Positions 40,027-49,476 of a DNA stretch of 57,878 nt are shown one piece after another. The notes under the pieces were generated by a model that made no database searches, was not told the origin of the DNA, and saw nothing but the letters and a program-made list of their open reading frames with translations. A program made the position numbers and the translations under genes. The stretch comes from Bacillota bacterium (lineage in GTDB: Bacteria; Bacillota; SHA-98; UBA4971): NCBI GenBank assembly GCA_029551185.1, contig JAKPFY010000185.1, positions 1 through 57,878 of the forward strand, in the 5' to 3' direction. Each line of letters starts with the position of its first letter. Within the stretch, counting starts at the first letter, position 1.

Positions 40027-42519
40027 TTAGCACTCAGTGTACCCACAGGCTACACACTTGAGGCAGCCTTCAACGTGAATTAGGTTCCACGTGCCACATG
40101 ACGGACATAAACTGAATAACTTTGCCGAGACGCTGTCCTCTTCAAAGAGGCTTGTACCCTCCTCAGCGCATCCGGCATCCTCCTCGCCGAAGCGCTCACT
40201 GAGGTACCCGGCGAGGAATTGGCCGATAGCGTCAGGAACCGACCTGACTCTGCCGGGCCCAAACCCAATACTCCTCGACCCGCCGATCCCGGTGAGCTGG
40301 TTTGCTATCTCCTGGGGATCGACGCCTGATCGCAGCGAGATGGATATCAGTCTTGCTATAGCTTCCGTAAACGCGCTTACATCACTGCCTGCCTTGCCGA
40401 TCTGGGCAAATAGCTCTATAGGATGGCGGTCAATCGTGTTTAAGGTGATGAAGAGCTTGCCCAGGGGAGTAGCTCTGACATCAGTAAACCCTTCCAGCCT
40501 TGACGGTCTATTTATAGGACGAATCTTGCCCCATACACCGTTTATGCGATAATGCATGTTTGCTGCCGGTTGAGGGCAAGCACTGTCCGGAGCAGCCTCA
40601 CTCTTTCCAAAATCAGGTTCTGTGCCTACAGTCAATACTTGTTCCTTGCGACTGCCGTCCCGGTAAACAGTGACCCCCTTGCAACCCAGATCATACGCAA
40701 GCCTAAATACCCTCTCCACATCGTCTGATGTCGCTTCATTCGGGAAATTTACAGTCTTTGACACTGCGTTATCAGTGTACTTCTGAAATGCAGCTTGCAT
40801 CCGGATATGCCATTCGGGTTCTATTTCATGGGCTGTGACGAATATCCTCTTCACTTCCTCCGGCACGCCCTCTACATCCGTCAAAGCGCCTCGTCTCGCA
40901 ACTTCATCCATGAGGTCATCTGAATAAAATCCCAGTTTCTTTCCATAGGCGCGAAATGCCGGGTTGACTTCACGAAGCTCAGTTCCATCCAGAACATGCC
41001 TGGTGAAAGCAAGGCTGAAGAGAGGCTCTATTCCAGAAGATGCGCCTGCTATTATGCTTATAGTCCCTGTAGGAGCAATCGTTGTTGTGGTGGCGTTCCT
41101 GACCCTCAGGCCTTCTGCCTCGCGTCTGCTCCCCTTCCAGTTGGGAAAGACTCCCCTTGTCTTGGCCAGTTCCAAGGACGCTGCCCTACTTTCTGCCTGG
41201 ATGAACCCTATTAAGTCCTCGGCAAGATCCACAGCGTCTTCTGAGTCGTATAAAATGCCAAGCTGAATGAGAAGATCCGCCCATCCCATTAGCCCGAGAC
41301 CTACCTTGCGATTTCCCTTATGCATAGCCTCGATTTCAGGCAATGGATATCTGCCGGCATCAATCATGTTATCCATAAAGTGGACAGCTACGTGGATTGA
41401 CTCTCTCAGACCTTCCCAGTCAACCCTGGGTGAACCGTTCACTTCTCGGACAAACTTTGCCACGTTCAGAGAACCTAAATTACATGCTTCATAAGGCAAC
41501 AGCATCTGTTCGCCGCAAGGGTTTGTGGCTTCGTATGTACCTACGTTAGGAGTTGGGTTAAATTCATTAAGCCGGTCAATAAAAACGATGCCCGGCTCTC
41601 CGGTTCTCCAAGCAGACTCCACTATGAGATCAAAAACATCCCTGGCCCGAAGTTTCCCCACAACTTCTTTGCTGCGGGGGTTTACGAGCTCATATTCACC
41701 GTCTTCTTCCAAGGCATCCATGAATTTCTCGGTTATGGCTACAGAAATATTGAAATTCGTCAATTGAGTTGTATCATTCTTTAAGGTAATAAACTCAAGA
41801 ATATCCGGGTGATCCACGCGCAGCATCCCCATATTTGCGCCGCGTCTGACTCCACCCTGTTTTATCGCTTCTGTAGCTGCGTTGAAGACTTTCATGAAGG
41901 ATATCGGACCTGACGCGACACCGCCTGTAGTCTTTACCACATCATTCTTCGGACGCAACCGACTAAATGAAAAGCCTGTTCCTCCGCCGGATTTATGAAT
42001 CAGCGCCGCATTCTTCAATGTCTCAAAAATACTTACCATGGAATCTTCAATAGGTAAGACAAAACAGGCGCAAAGCTGTTGAAGCTCTCTTCCGGCATTA
42101 CTTAGGGCAGGCGAATTCGGAAGGAACTTGCCCTCTGCCATAAGCATATAAAACCTTACAGCTGTTCGGGCAAGTTGCGGCATGTTTTCGCGCACCCTCG
42201 TCTCTATATCTTCCCACTTTCCTTCTATGAGGCCTCTGGACTCTAAATCAGAAAACCCGTTCTTCAGTGCAGCCCAGTCCCACCGGGAAAATTCCGGCAC
42301 AGGCAGGGAAGCCACTTCCTCGGAAGCGGATGACTCAGTCTCATGCAAGGGATCATATAGCACGTCCATTAACGCAATATTCTTAGCAACTCTCCAAAAC
42401 ATCTCTCGAGGAGTCTCTATGACTTTTCCTGATTCATCCTTGCTTAAGTAACGACTCTCGAGCACAGTCAAAGCATTATACGATAATTCGGGTTCCGGCA
42501 ATGATAAACCTGACTTCAC
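40027..42519 (-). CDS. nrdJ: Adenosylcobalamin-dependent ribonucleoside reductase (class II)
   Basis: 830 residues. The class II pattern is clear: NSPALSNAGRELQQLCACFVLP, VKTTGGVASGPISFMKVFNAATE, the active-site ATNPCGEQMLLPYEACNLGSLN and GVTVYRDGSRKEQVL. The tail has a zinc-ribbon-like CPSCGTWNLIHVEGCLKCVACGYTEC, usual for the vitamin-B12-dependent group. It makes deoxyribonucleotides independently of oxygen. GTG start at 42519 with GGAGGAATCCTT upstream. It lies 15 nt after the A2M-VanW gene, so it probably shares its transcript. Confidence 0.96.
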   Translation of the reverse strand: MKSGLSLPEPELSYNALTVLESRYLSKDESGKVIETPREMFWRVAKNIALMDVLYDPLHETESSASEEVASLPVPEFSRWDWAALKNGFSDLESRGLIEGKWEDIETRVRENMPQLARTAVRFYMLMAEGKFLPNSPALSNAGRELQQLCACFVLPIEDSMVSIFETLKNAALIHKSGGGTGFSFSRLRPKNDVVKTTGGVASGPISFMKVFNAATEAIKQGGVRRGANMGMLRVDHPDILEFITLKNDTTQLTNFNISVAITEKFMDALEEDGEYELVNPRSKEVVGKLRARDVFDLIVESAWRTGEPGIVFIDRLNEFNPTPNVGTYEATNPCGEQMLLPYEACNLGSLNVAKFVREVNGSPRVDWEGLRESIHVAVHFMDNMIDAGRYPLPEIEAMHKGNRKVGLGLMGWADLLIQLGILYDSEDAVDLAEDLIGFIQAESRAASLELAKTRGVFPNWKGSRREAEGLRVRNATTTTIAPTGTISIIAGASSGIEPLFSLAFTRHVLDGTELREVNPAFRAYGKKLGFYSDDLMDEVARRGALTDVEGVPEEVKRIFVTAHEIEPEWHIRMQAAFQKYTDNAVSKTVNFPNEATSDDVERVFRLAYDLGCKGVTVYRDGSRKEQVLTVGTEPDFGKSEAAPDSACPQPAANMHYRINGVWGKIRPINRPSRLEGFTDVRATPLGKLFITLNTIDRHPIELFAQIGKAGSDVSAFTEAIARLISISLRSGVDPQEIANQLTGIGGSRSIGFGPGRVRSVPDAIGQFLAGYLSERFGEEDAGCAEEGTSLFEEDSVSAKLFSLCPSCGTWNLIHVEGCLKCVACGYTEC

Positions 42520-42534
42520 AAGGATTCCTCCCGC

Positions 42535-45500
42535 CTAAATGTCGTATGCCACTGCATGAATAGGCTTGTAATAGTCTTCTGATATGAGTTCACGACTGAC
42601 TGTACCGTCAATATCAATACTCCGCCACACCGCGACCCGGACCCCGTTTTTCCCGCCGGAAACCTTGGCATCACTGGCTCCCGCCCCTATTAGACGAGGT
42701 CTCTCCACATCTAAGACCTCAGTCGCTACTTGTACATTTCTTGGGGTGGGAAGACCTGCCTTTATCTCCACAATGAGCCTTGCGCCTTCCATACAGGCAC
42801 CTATAGTGACAGGCACGTCCAGTTGATTCTTGAACCGCAAGTCAAGCCCGGCTTCGTCGCTGACTGTAGCATCTAATCCGGGAGGCACGTAATCCACAGG
42901 CTGTGAATGAGGGTGACGTTCAATAATCTCCAAGCCGGCCCTGAGGACGGCATTGTATAATGTCGTCGATACCTGGCAGATTCCCCCTGCCACCCCAGGC
43001 ACGCTCTTGCCTCCTCGGATTACCCGAGCGTCTTTGTAACCTTCGGACTTTAGTCTCGGTCCCAACACCTTGTCAAAGGAAAACACTTCCCCGGGTTGAA
43101 GCTGAAATCCGTCAATCATTGACGCAGCAAGCGCAATATTATGATTCCGGTTCAGTTCAGGGTCTTTGACCGTAGTCGAAAAACCTGCTATGGTCGGCAA
43201 TTGACACACTATCTCATAACTCTCTGAGCTGCCATAGATGTCAGGCGCGTACATTCCCCATACCCTGGTAGGCATTACCTTGTATTCGCCTGGGCGTTCA
43301 GCTCTGATAGAATACACTATCTCATTTTCGCCTTCCTTGAGGTAAGAGCTGAAGATTGCCAATTTTTCATCACGGATTTCTTTACGCCCATACCAGAAGT
43401 CCCAGCTGTAACTGTCGCACGGCGTATCGACTACTTCAAATCCTGATGGAAGCGGATCTTCAACCATAATATACGTGCGAGGCCTATCCGTATTTATGGT
43501 AATCCTGACTGTTATTTCATCCCCTTGATTTACAGGGCCTGTAATAGGTTCATAAGTATCGCTTCCCTTGACTTTGCGATAGTATCCGCGCCTTACGCAA
43601 ATGCCGTTTTCCTCAGGGGCCAGGGATTGAGAGGGAGTGTAGTGCTTGCATGCGACAGAATAATAAAGTCTTCCCTTGCCCGACTTCTGAATGACAAGTT
43701 CATTCTTGCCTGGAATCAGCTGTTTGGGATCGATCTCTATTATCGTTTCCTTGTCCCACACGTGTTTCCCGGTAAACCTCGTCCTTTCAACACGTTTCCC
43801 GTTGAGCCGAGCGGTAGCGGTAATATTCGGCGAGATCTCATCGCGGAGTTTCATGTATTCAGTCAAAGCCATAATAGCGATTGCTGTGTCTTTAGTGGAA
43901 CTCCAGGCATTGCCAGAGCGCGTCTCTGATAACCATCTCACAACGCCAGGTGCTGAAGGATTGTCAGGATCTACAGCTAACATGGCCAAAAGCGCATACG
44001 CAGTAGTCTCTACACGATTGTCAGCGAAGTACCACTCGAAAGAAGAAGCCTCCCAGTAAGTCCTGGTATCATCACCACGCGAACGATTCAGAAGATCATC
44101 TAACACTATCTTAGCGTCTTTCTCTCTCTCCACATTCTTCAGGGTCAGGGCAAGAAAGGCTAAGGAGCAATTGGAAAGCTCATTACGCCTATCTATCATC
44201 TCATCGAGACGAGGTAGGACTTTCTCCCCCACCTCGGACATGACGAACAAATTATAGACGAGCTCATCAACATTTCGCGGATTATTAAGGAACCTGCCAA
44301 GGGCTTTCTTACCCCGCATAAGCACCCCGTTATCCACCCGGAAACCGGCGTTCTTGGCGAGATTAAGACCATATACTGCGTACGCTGTCATCCTTGCGTT
44401 CGGCTCGTCGTACTCCCACCAACCCCAGCCGTCTTCATAATGCTGGTATCTGTATATTCTGGCAAGACCTGCTTCCACCATTTTCGGAAGGTCTTTCGAG
44501 ACTTCCGGCATTTCAATGCCAAGCTCATTCAGGGTCTTAGATACGATAATATTAGGAAGAAATGAGTTCATGGTCTGCTCTAAACATCCGTAAGGATAAG
44601 ACGTAAGGTATTCAAGCGCCCCCAGGGCAGTAGCAGCCACAGACGGAGCGAGTCTTACTTCCACGCTCACCGTGTTATCCAGCACGTCTTCGGGGATATC
44701 GAATTCTATCTTCGCCTCTCCGTCTTGAATTGGATCATCTCCTACCTCACCGCCTTGAAATACCTGAGTCTGTTTGCCAAAAGGCAGCACAGGCACGTTG
44801 ATTTCCAGAGCGTCCCTCATCCTTCCTGCATTTATAGACGCTGTAAACTTGGCGACACCCACCTTATCACATGTGATCTTCCAGTCTAAGGTAGCCTTGT
44901 CGCCAGGTGCCAGACTGACACTGCGCTCATCCCCATCAGTCACTTTCACCCCGTCAGCTTTAAGATTAACCTTCGCGTCTATCTCCTTCGCCGTATAGTT
45001 GTGAACTATGGTGGACACGTAAGTCGTATCACCAAAAGTAAAGAATCTCGGTGCAGCCAACCTGACAATGAGATCCTTCGTGGTTATCACGTCATAAGTC
45101 GCAGATCCTACTTGAGTCGCTAAGGTATGCGCCTTCACAGTCGCTCTCCATGTAGTTAACGAATCAGGCATAGTGAAAGTCACTTTCGCCGTGCCTTTCC
45201 TATCAGTCAGGACTGTAGGCGCCCAAAAGGCTGTATCAGGAAAATCCTTACGGACATCCGAAGCATCCGCCTCCTTGTCTGCGCCACCATAGTACCACCG
45301 TGGGAAAGAGTAGTTTGTGATCGTTCTGTTCCAGATTGATCCGTAGAATGCCTTTCTGATATCAGGCATAAGCTCTCTTTGGATAGCATATATGGATGCA
45401 TCCACAACACCTAAGGAGACTTCCGCCTGTACAGGATTGCCTCCATGGTCACACGTCTTAATCGTATAAGACGCCTTCTCACCCGGGCCATATGTCTCTT

Positions 45501-47562
45501 TGTCAGGCATGATTGATACATCAAGGAAATTATCCTTCACTGAAACATACATGACCTTCTCCTGGCAATAGAGGCGCTTCCCACGGACCAATGTTACTGT
45601 AAAGAACGCGTTAGGACTGAGTTCTTCAGTTATTGGGATCTCAAACAGGCGTGTATGCCCGGCCAGTTCAACCACTTCATAAGAAATCAGATCCCGTCCT
45701 TCTATGGCAGCAATAGCCCAGACATGATCAAAAGTGGTATTCACAAGGACTTTCGCAACGTCCCCTATCTCATAGACGTCTTTATCAGTTATGATTTCAA
45801 TTTCCGTGCCACCGTAACTGGGCCATCTGCCTGCATCACTTGCTACCCAAACGTAAGCTTCTTCTGTTATTTGATTCCCCCGCGAGTCAGATCCTGAAAC
45901 TTCTACGACATAGGACCCTTCTTCTTTCGGAGTAAACTGACACTCTGCCTTACCGTCTGCCCCTGTAGCAAGCTTTCCGGCCTGTTCCTTCCATCCGGTG
46001 GACTTCTTCCCGTCCCACTTGACTTTCATAGCCTGCCATGTAAGATTCGTTGCGAAACACTTGCCGTCAAGGGTTTCCGCCTTCACGAGAATTCTTACCT
46101 GCTCTCCGGGAGATACCACGTACTCGGCAGGCTGAACCACTAAATCAAAAAGACCTCTGGCCAAGATCACTGAAGTCCTACCGCTGACTTCACGCAAGCT
46201 CTCATCAGTTACAGTAGCTTCCACGAACAATCTCTTGGATCTTTGAATTTTTTCCGTCTCGAGAGAAAACTCCATGACGCCGCTGTCTGAAGTTACACCT
46301 TCCCCTGAATCCACCAGGTCTCCATAGTAACCATAGTCTTCATCCATAACGGAAAAATAGCCTAAATCCTCTGTGGAATAGTAAGGACGGTAATACGGTT
46401 GGGCATAGACTGCATATCTTACTTTAGCATTGGGAACAGGCTTGCCGAAATAGTAAGCAGCTGCGATTTCACAAGATATGTCATCCCCTGCTACATACAC
46501 TTCCCTATCAGTAGAGACTGTGACTTCATACTCAGGCTTTCTATACTCAGCCACCTTGAACCAGCCGTAATGCGTGCTTCCTCTGACATTGGCAAGAACC
46601 CTGTAAGTACCCAGCGAAGGTTCATCCCCCAGAATAACCTCCCCTGTAAAAGAGCCGTATTCGTTGGTTTTGGTTTCTGTCTTATAGATGCACGCATCCT
46701 TTGCATCTCTAACCTCAACTGTGACTTTTTCATCATCCAGGACCTTAAAGGTTCCGCCGGTATCTTCACGGAGAATACCTTTCAGCGATACTTTTTGACC
46801 CGGCCTGTATATAGGCCTATCAGTGTATATATATACTTTGTACCTGGAGTCCTCCCAGTAGCTCCAAGAACTCACCTGGGCGAAACTCCGGCCTTTGCCG
46901 TCTTCCTCAGTGCCGACTACACAGATGCCTCCCTTTGGAATATTCTCCATATCAAGCAGGCATACCCCGTCATGGTTTGTGGCTCCCTTTCCAATGATTT
47001 CCCTGTTTTCGCCATATACGACAATGTCAACACCTTCTTCGGGAGCGTCTTCGCTGAAAGTATGGGCGTACACTAAAAGTTCGCTCTGGCCCTGTTTTGT
47101 CACAAGCCCCAGATCAGTTACAAGAAACCATTCGCTTGCTTCGCGCCCCTCACTGTCTTGGGCTTTGATTACATACCCTCCCCTGCCTTCAGATTGAACC
47201 CTGACATTTATGGAGAATTCTCCTCCCGCCTTTTTGGGGCGAGGGTATTCAGAAAACTTCCGCACCAGGCTCGCGTCTTGCGGCAGGTTTTCTGCGCAAG
47301 ACGATAATGAACCATGCTTTTCATAGTGCGTAGCAGGATCAAACTTCCACACTGTAAAGTCAATCCTGGTTGAGCCCATTCCTCTTACGCAAATTACAGG
47401 CGTCTCAGAAGTCTGAAGCACTCGATCTTCTGAATACATGTATAGGTAACCTTCAGCTCCCCTACTGTCTGCCGGAAATGATCGTAGAATAAAAATGAGT
47501 CCGATGAATAAAACGACAATAACGCCTGTCACAAGAAACTTTTGAGAAGACTTCGCAGTCAT
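42535..47562 (-). CDS. Alpha-2-macroglobulin with thioester site, fused to a C-terminal VanW domain
   Basis: 1675 residues. An N-terminal signal anchor (about 9-28) leads outside the cell. Then come macroglobulin-like domains (about 150-960, with TDRPIYRPGQKVSLKGILRE near 247-266 and TFTMPDSLTTWRATVKAHTL), the bait-containing middle, and a thioester domain with YPYGCLEQTMNS (Cys993 to Gln996) followed by an alpha-barrel pattern to about 1260. Residues about 1457-1602 are a VanW domain (FSTTVKDPELNRNHNIALAAS, FSFDKVLGP, GGICQVSTTLYNAVLRAGLEI). A VanW-type tail (GVRVAVWRSIDIDGTVSRELISEDYYKP) ends the protein. Bacterial A2M proteins trap invading proteases covalently and usually sit beside pbpC; I know of no VanW fusion. 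ATG start after GGGGTAAG. It is 6 nt after the AMMECR1 gene. Confidence 0.9.
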   Translation of the reverse strand: MTAKSSQKFLVTGVIVVLFIGLIFILRSFPADSRGAEGYLYMYSEDRVLQTSETPVICVRGMGSTRIDFTVWKFDPATHYEKHGSLSSCAENLPQDASLVRKFSEYPRPKKAGGEFSINVRVQSEGRGGYVIKAQDSEGREASEWFLVTDLGLVTKQGQSELLVYAHTFSEDAPEEGVDIVVYGENREIIGKGATNHDGVCLLDMENIPKGGICVVGTEEDGKGRSFAQVSSWSYWEDSRYKVYIYTDRPIYRPGQKVSLKGILREDTGGTFKVLDDEKVTVEVRDAKDACIYKTETKTNEYGSFTGEVILGDEPSLGTYRVLANVRGSTHYGWFKVAEYRKPEYEVTVSTDREVYVAGDDISCEIAAAYYFGKPVPNAKVRYAVYAQPYYRPYYSTEDLGYFSVMDEDYGYYGDLVDSGEGVTSDSGVMEFSLETEKIQRSKRLFVEATVTDESLREVSGRTSVILARGLFDLVVQPAEYVVSPGEQVRILVKAETLDGKCFATNLTWQAMKVKWDGKKSTGWKEQAGKLATGADGKAECQFTPKEEGSYVVEVSGSDSRGNQITEEAYVWVASDAGRWPSYGGTEIEIITDKDVYEIGDVAKVLVNTTFDHVWAIAAIEGRDLISYEVVELAGHTRLFEIPITEELSPNAFFTVTLVRGKRLYCQEKVMYVSVKDNFLDVSIMPDKETYGPGEKASYTIKTCDHGGNPVQAEVSLGVVDASIYAIQRELMPDIRKAFYGSIWNRTITNYSFPRWYYGGADKEADASDVRKDFPDTAFWAPTVLTDRKGTAKVTFTMPDSLTTWRATVKAHTLATQVGSATYDVITTKDLIVRLAAPRFFTFGDTTYVSTIVHNYTAKEIDAKVNLKADGVKVTDGDERSVSLAPGDKATLDWKITCDKVGVAKFTASINAGRMRDALEINVPVLPFGKQTQVFQGGEVGDDPIQDGEAKIEFDIPEDVLDNTVSVEVRLAPSVAATALGALEYLTSYPYGCLEQTMNSFLPNIIVSKTLNELGIEMPEVSKDLPKMVEAGLARIYRYQHYEDGWGWWEYDEPNARMTAYAVYGLNLAKNAGFRVDNGVLMRGKKALGRFLNNPRNVDELVYNLFVMSEVGEKVLPRLDEMIDRRNELSNCSLAFLALTLKNVEREKDAKIVLDDLLNRSRGDDTRTYWEASSFEWYFADNRVETTAYALLAMLAVDPDNPSAPGVVRWLSETRSGNAWSSTKDTAIAIMALTEYMKLRDEISPNITATARLNGKRVERTRFTGKHVWDKETIIEIDPKQLIPGKNELVIQKSGKGRLYYSVACKHYTPSQSLAPEENGICVRRGYYRKVKGSDTYEPITGPVNQGDEITVRITINTDRPRTYIMVEDPLPSGFEVVDTPCDSYSWDFWYGRKEIRDEKLAIFSSYLKEGENEIVYSIRAERPGEYKVMPTRVWGMYAPDIYGSSESYEIVCQLPTIAGFSTTVKDPELNRNHNIALAASMIDGFQLQPGEVFSFDKVLGPRLKSEGYKDARVIRGGKSVPGVAGGICQVSTTLYNAVLRAGLEIIERHPHSQPVDYVPPGLDATVSDEAGLDLRFKNQLDVPVTIGACMEGARLIVEIKAGLPTPRNVQVATEVLDVERPRLIGAGASDAKVSGGKNGVRVAVWRSIDIDGTVSRELISEDYYKPIHAVAYDI

Positions 47563-47568
47563 TTAAAC

Positions 47569-48387
47569 TTACCCCCTCACGGGTAAGGTTTTTCCAAACC
47601 TTTCCGTTTCAAACACATATAACTCGAATGGAACACCCGGGCCTATACCTGCTTCCCGCATAGCCCACTTTCTTTGATATGCTGCAGTTTTAGCCTCACC
47701 TGGCAAAATTACCCCGGAGAGTCCGCCTGCCTTTACCAATACTCCTTCCAGACGCGGGTTTACCTCTATATCCGGACTCTCTCTCCTAATCCTTCCTACC
47801 ACAGATACGCAAAAGTCAAGTTTTGGTAAGTCTTCCTTGTTGATAGGCCGGTGACGCATATCCATGGTAGCTGCCATCTTTGCCGCCCAGGCAATCTCCT
47901 GCTGCAGATTGGACTCGGCAGGACAGACCCTTCCCATACATCCCCTGACCTTGCCGTCAATTATCAAAGTGACGAATGCCCCGGCTTGAATCTCTTGAAG
48001 CGGACTTGACACAAGTTGAGCGGAGTCTTCGTGCTTTGACTCCGTCCTTTTATTCTGAATAACTTCAGTCACAGAAGCCCTGGCAATGTCCAGGATTTCT
48101 CTTTCCAAAGCAGGAGAACGTAAAGACCTGAGCTTATCAAGCGCGTCACCTCCGGGGACGTCTGAGGATGTCAGGTCGGAGGAGATTAATATCCCGTTGT
48201 CTTCTATTGAGTCCTGAAGCCCTGATTGCCATGGCAAAACTGTCATCTCTGCTTCAATTTGACCCCTACGGCTGGAGACATCGCCTGTAGACTTCATGAC
48301 AGTTGTACCTATAGCGATAAGCACAATAAACGCGCCGGCAATAACCAGATAGCGCTGACCATGCTTTCTCTTGTCAATCGCAGTCAC
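47569..48387 (-). CDS. Membrane-anchored (exported) AMMECR1-domain protein
   Basis: 272 residues. One membrane segment at about 13-31 follows a basic start (DKRKHGQRY), putting the rest outside the cell. A linker of about 60 residues precedes an AMMECR1 domain (about 95-270): ILDIARASVTEVI, GAFVTLIIDGKVRGCMGRVCP (with the RGC motif at 148-150), AWAAKMAATMDMRHRPINKEDLPKLDFCVSVV, and VLVKAGGLSGVILPG...WAMREAGIGPG. AMMECR1 proteins are normally cytosolic and of unknown function, often grouped with Memo and a radical SAM protein. Export is unusual. GTG start at 48387. It precedes the A2M-VanW gene by 6 nt. Confidence 0.85.
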   Translation of the reverse strand: MTAIDKRKHGQRYLVIAGAFIVLIAIGTTVMKSTGDVSSRRGQIEAEMTVLPWQSGLQDSIEDNGILISSDLTSSDVPGGDALDKLRSLRSPALEREILDIARASVTEVIQNKRTESKHEDSAQLVSSPLQEIQAGAFVTLIIDGKVRGCMGRVCPAESNLQQEIAWAAKMAATMDMRHRPINKEDLPKLDFCVSVVGRIRRESPDIEVNPRLEGVLVKAGGLSGVILPGEAKTAAYQRKWAMREAGIGPGVPFELYVFETERFGKTLPVRG

Positions 48388-48609: not shown

Positions 48610-49476
48610 ATGATCACATATATAGTCCAGCCCGGTGATACCCTTACATTGATTGCTCAACGGTTCGGTTCGACAGTAACAGCGATTGTCACAACCAACA
48701 ATATTTCCGATCCGAATCTCATTTTTGTGGGACAAGTGCTTCAAATACCGGTAGCAGGCGCGCAGCCGACACCTCCTCCGCCTGCCCCACCTATGCCGAC
48801 CCCGACACCACCTACCATTACAGTGCCGGCAGGCTTCAGGCTCTATATTGTGCAGCCAACGGATACTCTGGCAGAACTTGCAGCCCGTTTTGGCACGACA
48901 GTCGAGGTGCTGGTGACAGTAAACCGTATCTCTGATCCGAACCTCATATCCGTGGGACAGGTCTTGTTTGTTCCTATAAAACCAACTATAGTCATACCCA
49001 CACCGCCGCCTGCGCCGCCTACACCACCGACACCGCCCGCCCCTCCTGCGCCTCCGGCACCTCCCAAGCCAACTGTCCCGGTCACAGGGGTAAATCAGGT
49101 GTCTGTCATCCAGGACGGACTAAGGCATACTTTCATGGTGAACAGGACAACATTCTCACGGGGCGAGCCTGTGCGCCTCAGTTTTAGCAAAACCAATGTC
49201 ACCGGTACCCCTGTAACAATTACTTACAGATCAAGCCAGAGATATGATTTTGTCGTGACACGATCAGGAAGGGAGATTTGGCGCTGGTCCCAGGGACGGT
49301 TTTTCACGTTCGCTTTGGAAAGAATTACGCTGGCAGCCGGACAGCGTCTGCTTCATGTGCAGATTTGGAATCAGACAACAAATGAAGGGGTCCCTGTGAC
49401 TCCAGGGATTTACACTGTCACAGCAACCAACACAGGAACCGGAGTGAAGCTTAGCCTTCAAATTGAAATCCGGTGA
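48610..49476 (+). CDS. Double-LysM protein with a proline-rich linker and BsuPI domain
   Basis: 288 residues. Two LysM domains (about 3-47 and 77-121; YIVQPGDTLTLIAQRFG and YIVQPTDTLAELAARFG) are joined by Pro-rich linkers (PTPPPPAPPMPTPTPP, then a run of PPAPP-like repeats). The C-terminal ~110 residues match the BsuPI intracellular proteinase inhibitor domain (VTITYRSSQRYDFVVTRSGREIWRWSQGRFFTFALERITLAAGQ). It lacks a signal peptide, as SafA and other spore-coat LysM proteins do, so it may assemble on the forespore. ATG at 48610 with AAGGGGGAA upstream. The two LysM repeats are near-identical in their second half (SDPNLI-VGQVL). Confidence 0.88.
   Translation: MITYIVQPGDTLTLIAQRFGSTVTAIVTTNNISDPNLIFVGQVLQIPVAGAQPTPPPPAPPMPTPTPPTITVPAGFRLYIVQPTDTLAELAARFGTTVEVLVTVNRISDPNLISVGQVLFVPIKPTIVIPTPPPAPPTPPTPPAPPAPPAPPKPTVPVTGVNQVSVIQDGLRHTFMVNRTTFSRGEPVRLSFSKTNVTGTPVTITYRSSQRYDFVVTRSGREIWRWSQGRFFTFALERITLAAGQRLLHVQIWNQTTNEGVPVTPGIYTVTATNTGTGVKLSLQIEIR

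Follow-up and report, generated by a model that had tools for sequence, protein, structure and literature searches.

The bacterial A2M-PbpC pair (A2M, alpha-2-macroglobulin) has been proposed to inhibit proteases and to mend the wall (PMC4498604, PMC5764988). What connected A2Ms with wall synthesis until now was the adjacency of yfhM and pbpC in E. coli, two genes that stand in this order, A2M then transpeptidase, as in the locus described here. Type II A2Ms are devoid of the CxEQ motif (PMC5764988). L,D-transpeptidase activity is known for two VanW proteins of C. difficile, LdtCd4 and LdtCd5 (Bollinger 2024, reviewed in both PMC12729407 and PMC11986978), so that the wording "of unknown function", used for VanW in the preliminary description of this DNA, is outdated. 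These two enzymes have a Cys-His-small-residue triad and are inhibited by meropenem; for some other VanW proteins no L,D-transpeptidase activity was seen (PMC12729407).

The window (the whole stretch of 57,878 nucleotides that was analysed) contains a gene in which an A2M and a VanW domain form one polypeptide. Its coordinates, its length and the position of its thioester motif had been given correctly in the preliminary description, which left out that it lies on the minus strand. The claim that such a fusion is undescribed agrees with our search of the open-access literature, where nothing joining A2M with VanW or YoaR was found, a scope that makes this weak evidence of absence. The features of the gene and of two neighbours are as follows.

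42535..47562, minus strand: A2M-VanW fusion gene, 1675 aa (single ORF, Pfam domains; 12 further genomes of the family have one-ORF homologues)
47485..47535, minus strand: hydrophobic segment at the N terminus, residues 10-26, either a signal anchor or a signal peptide (hydropathy scan)
46945..47121, minus strand: bMG3 domain, residues 148-206 (Pfam PF11974, 2.4e-10)
46552..46839, minus strand: MG2 domain, residues 242-337 (Pfam PF01835, 6.3e-22)
45385..45801, minus strand: bait-region domain (A2M_BRD), residues 588-726 (Pfam PF07703, 9e-19)
44962..45234, minus strand: A2M domain, residues 777-867 (Pfam PF00207, 3.5e-21)
43813..44664, minus strand: thioester domain (TED), about residues 967-1250 (Pfam TED 1131-1236; helical domain in the AF2 model; Foldseek)
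44575..44586, minus strand: thioester motif CLEQ, Cys993-Gln996 (C993, E995 and Q996 invariant in relatives)
43240..43605, minus strand: bMG10 domain, residues 1320-1441, with the pocket pair M1437-Y1438 (Pfam PF17973, 9.8e-28)
42763..43152, minus strand: VanW domain, residues 1471-1600 (Pfam PF04294, 7.5e-48, 161.8 bits for a cut-off of 27)
42976-42978, minus strand: VanW Cys1529 (VanW alignment)
42907-42909, minus strand: VanW His1552 (VanW alignment)
42538..42753, minus strand: G5-like C-terminal tail, residues 1604-1675 (Foldseek to G5 domains; Pfam G5 sub-threshold)
47569..48387, minus strand: membrane-anchored AMMECR1-domain protein, 272 aa, upstream of the fusion gene with a 6 bp gap (Pfam AMMECR1, 5.3e-24; N-terminal hydrophobic segment)
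48610..49476, plus strand: protein with two LysM domains and a BsuPI (proteinase-inhibitor-type) domain, 288 aa, divergent (Pfam)

A thioester A2M and a VanW domain in one gene

The fusion is real: one ORF carries the Pfam domains from MG2 through VanW, and the profile search places VanW beyond residue 1450, where it had been announced. The probability that an assembly join or a frameshift merged two genes is close to nil. Such an artefact would find some support in the sister families, which have the two genes apart, but intact one-ORF homologues of full length (1675-1746 aa) come from independent MAG assemblies of several studies and from two genera; named relatives include the MAGs Firmicutes bacterium UBA5449, UBA6811 and UBA4981. 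The neighbours of the gene are also conserved in relatives, and purifying selection acts on either side of the A2M/VanW junction, dN/dS between the window and five relatives being about 0.07-0.12 in the A2M part and about 0.05-0.08 in VanW. These three observations refute an origin by assembly join or frameshift. Separate genes in relatives, named in the preliminary description as part of its second refuting outcome, do occur in sister families, while the assembly fault does not hold.

At its other end the gene is separated from a ribonucleotide reductase gene by only 15 bp (window 42519-42535); the corresponding interval in relatives is either wider or occupied by another gene. The promoter scan returned none on the strand of the fusion gene. 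PADLOC gave no anti-phage defence match, and a role in such defence was dropped on this ground.

The A2M part follows the type I domain order (MG2, bait region, A2M, TED, bMG10, by Pfam). As the preliminary description proposed, the thioester site is intact: the CLEQ motif (993-996) is accompanied by the pocket residues Y989, Y991, M1437 and Y1438, and these positions (Tyr/Phe989, Tyr991, Met1437, Tyr1438) are conserved among relatives. In the proteins of Salmonella and E. coli the thioester is protected by the same residues (PMC4498604). Because both the motif and its shielding pocket are conserved, a working thioester is expected. The AlphaFold2 model of residues 880-1675 (pLDDT 79.5, pTM 0.67) matches structures of A2M, CD109 and complement in Foldseek searches, native A2M included, with E values down to 1.8e-25. 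By its domains and its CxEQ motif the protein is assigned to the type I A2Ms, and it is predicted to trap proteases covalently. The N-terminal hydrophobic segment, in which the hydropathy scan revealed no lipobox, indicates that the protein is probably exported or anchored.

In the VanW domain, Cys1529 and His1552 are invariant in the 58 domains compared, linked to A2M (31) or unlinked, and this domain is the most constrained part of the protein in most dN/dS comparisons. With this catalytic-type Cys/His pair it may well be active as an L,D-transpeptidase. The model of residues 1440-1675 is of good quality (pLDDT 89.9, pTM 0.86). Neither by sequence nor by the fold of this model did the VanW core give a confident PDB match; the high-probability fold matches are G5 domains only (probability 1.0, E 1.5e-3), in an alignment of about 70 columns consistent with the tail, where Pfam G5 scores 15.9 bits, under its cut-off of 23. 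PG_binding_4 was absent from the fusion protein (Pfam, E up to 1). It is likewise missing in the A2M-linked VanWs tested and present in an unlinked paralogue. The connection to glycopeptide-resistance clusters made in the preliminary description is irrelevant here: the NCBIfam vanW model gives 67.8 bits for a cut-off of 365, no van genes lie among the ORFs around the fusion gene, and membership in that VanW group is ruled out.

Upstream, the gene for the AMMECR1-domain protein is also found directly before the A2M gene in the Bacillota families f1, f2 and f63. The conserved residues of its domain include Arg148, Cys150, Gly152, Asp176, Arg178 and Glu231. AMMECR1 is one half of Memo-Ammecr1 systems (mentioned in PMC7159879), and no Memo gene was found in the source genome, which is 81% complete. 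A LysM ORF similar to the divergent one of the window adjoins the operon in four other genomes (G001, G005, G007 and G011); the LysM-BsuPI protein is possibly related in theme to the fusion protein.

Host envelope, gene pairing and origin of the fusion

The preliminary description took the host for a Gram-positive. The source genome nevertheless encodes Omp85 beside TamB, LpxD and LptF/G genes, and Omp85 was detected in 19 of the 21 relatives tested. These genes make it very probable that the host is a diderm Bacillota, with the fusion protein in the periplasm. Attachment of the trap to a Gram-positive wall was rejected for the same reason. The host also encodes four YkuD-domain proteins and two class A PBPs, both of the latter on contigs other than that of the fusion gene. 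Beside the fused A2M there is no class A PBP gene (Transgly plus Transpeptidase), and VanW is there instead.

To survey the phylum, bMG10 was searched in a sample of 398 genomes and the neighbours of the A2M gene were read in the 43 carriers. A thioester A2M is present in 37 genomes, in one of which it stops at a contig edge, so that the next gene is readable in 36. In all 36 a peptidoglycan transpeptidase of the VanW or PbpC kind accompanies the A2M: VanW as a fused domain in 12 and as the next gene in 9, and a PbpC-like gene as the next gene in 15. In G127, one of the VanW genomes of this count, the A2M is split into two overlapping ORFs upstream of VanW, by frameshift or assembly error. The proposal that VanW stands in the place of PbpC is therefore borne out, since one or the other fills this slot in the sampled genomes as pbpC does after yfhM in E. 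coli. Omp85 was found in 33 of the 34 thioester-A2M genomes tested, the sole exception being a draft of about 91% completeness (G002). The six genomes with a thioester-less A2M have no Omp85 (0/6), and the next gene encodes a Memo-domain protein in four and no recognised partner in two. From these counts it follows that A2M type, partner and Omp85 go together in this phylum. The survey thus separates, within one phylum, A2Ms of diderms (thioester, transpeptidase) from those of Omp85-negative genomes (thioester-less, mostly Memo).

Several other arrangements were seen. In the four genomes with Memo (loci L039, L166, L167 and L169, in G062, G304, G211 and G157) the Memo-domain protein encoded after the A2M is exported and its gene mostly overlaps that of the A2M by 4 bp. 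Memo and AMMECR1, the two halves of Memo-Ammecr1 systems, each adjoin an A2M, in different lineages. Bacteroidetes bacterium SZAS-92 has four A2M ORFs in 24 kb, one of them found without CxEQ. In four Armatimonadota A2M-VanW operons (L071, L078, L082 and L084) the first gene encodes a polytopic membrane protein (456-605 aa; many hydrophobic segments where scanned) and overlaps the A2M gene by 4 bp; Pfam returned no match for the two of these proteins that were tested.

The fusion is present in every one of the 13 genomes of the source family, whose members are uncultured, and in both genera. In the sister families f2, f63 and f73 VanW is the next gene after the A2M, often with a 4-bp overlap, and these separate partners have, where checked, their own N-terminal hydrophobic segment (hydropathy). 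Among Armatimonadota-type loci VanW directly follows the A2M in nine, and at least four loci of the Armatimonadota A2M clade are without it. By our own estimate, since a genome has only a few VanW genes in roughly 2500, the probability that A2M and VanW are adjacent in four families by chance is negligible.

The fused VanWs form one clade in the VanW tree (support 97/95), and the fused A2Ms one clade in the A2M tree (support 100). In both trees the fused clade adjoins A2Ms that have VanW as a separate adjacent gene. The A2M-linked Bacillota VanWs are separated (91/88) from the unlinked paralogues encoded in their own genomes, and the Armatimonadota VanWs form a separate clade. The A2M tree is quick and unrooted and has long branches; we draw nothing from its deep branching order. 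The fusion thus has a single origin. On the simplest reading of the trees an old A2M-VanW gene pair would have been fused once, and since the separate genes of the sister families represent the ancestral pair, they do not count against a fusion that forms one clade.

Possible roles of the fused protein

We favour, with a probability of roughly 55%, a periplasmic protease trap coupled to a peptidoglycan-repairing L,D-transpeptidase ("defend and repair") in a diderm Bacillota. The N-terminal segment would export the protein or anchor it across the inner membrane. An intruding protease would cut the bait region and be enclosed by the A2M part, the CLEQ thioester binding it covalently. VanW, through Cys1529 and His1552, and the G5-like tail would act on peptidoglycan as an L,D-transpeptidase, the products being probably 3-3 cross-links at damaged sites of the wall. 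By analogy, VanW would fill in a single gene the role proposed for PbpC beside the E. coli A2M. This reading is favoured because of the domains and motifs, the activity of the C. difficile VanW proteins, the invariant Cys/His and the constraint on VanW, but also because of the transpeptidase pairing in 36 of 36 genomes, the E. coli gene order, the single clade, the presence of Omp85 in carriers and that of LPS-transport genes in the host. Against it, some VanW proteins are without L,D-transpeptidase activity (PMC12729407), the PG_binding_4 domain that LdtCd4/5 and the unlinked paralogue have is missing, and the AMMECR1 partner is not accounted for. Moreover, the need for cross-linking is not obvious since the host already has its four YkuD proteins and two class A PBPs.

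Some of the same observations would suit a VanW that merely fixes the trap on peptidoglycan together with the G5-like tail, whether it binds there or attaches itself once, and does no cross-linking. The tail itself, the VanW proteins with no activity seen (PMC12729407), and the fact that the trap occupies in the fusion, which has no PG_binding_4, the place that this domain holds in the unlinked paralogue, are consistent with it. We consider this rather unlikely: the invariant Cys1529/His1552 and the constraint on VanW seem beyond what binding requires, the same slot is taken by PbpC, which is an enzyme, and in sister families VanW is a protein of its own, with a hydrophobic N-terminus, and would give the trap no covalent anchor. 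VanW could also be released or activated when bait cleavage moves TED and bMG10, making cross-linking protease-triggered. It sits directly behind bMG10, the thioester-shielding domain, TED moves far upon cleavage of the E. coli A2M (PMC4498604), and fusion gives direct coupling; if so, one chain would sense the damage and act as repair enzyme, the same conformational change trapping the protease and turning on the L,D-transpeptidase. VanW stays a separate protein in most families of the clade, however, and we hold this reading to be improbable. As for a trap whose chief task is to keep proteases off the wall enzyme and its neighbours and which does not serve repair, the adjoining LysM-BsuPI gene, a second possible proteinase inhibitor, would fit, but the other wall enzymes of the host have no such guard beside them and A2M specificity is broad; we regard it as very improbable.

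With the fusion, the "defend and repair" idea, which came from adjacent genes of E. coli, becomes testable on one purifiable molecule, where trap and wall enzyme can be assayed together.

Comparison with known systems

The place of VanW in this fusion is an unexpected one. The fusion protein resembles LdtCd4 and LdtCd5 by a VanW with conserved Cys and His and by an N-terminal membrane segment (here from hydropathy only). It differs in being without PG_binding_4, the A2M being in its place, and the A2M-linked Bacillota VanWs are a lineage apart from the unlinked ones of their own genomes. With VanW-B and VanW-G of glycopeptide-resistance clusters it has the same Pfam domain in common, the NCBIfam score and the gene neighbourhood setting it apart.

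On the A2M side, complement C3/C4/C5 share the A2M scaffold, and the TED half matches them by fold. Complement proteins have an extra domain, C345C, behind the last MG domain; that of the fusion is VanW. Type II A2Ms (MagD of P. aeruginosa) are also exported, in an operon with exported partners, whereas the fusion protein has CLEQ and the thioester-less A2Ms of the phylum are mostly beside Memo.

The closest likeness of arrangement is with E. coli yfhM-pbpC (type I A2M and PBP1C): a thioester A2M first, a peptidoglycan transpeptidase next, a diderm host. Here, in contrast, the partner is of the VanW type (cysteine) and not a class A PBP, it is on the same polypeptide, and the A2M belongs to a separate clade of the A2M tree. 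The pair is thus of the A2M-transpeptidase kind and is not a member of the A2M-PBP1C group, whose defining PBP is absent. An unrelated family of cross-linking enzymes in the same slot, beside a separate clade of A2Ms, makes an accidental association of A2Ms with wall synthesis hard to maintain.
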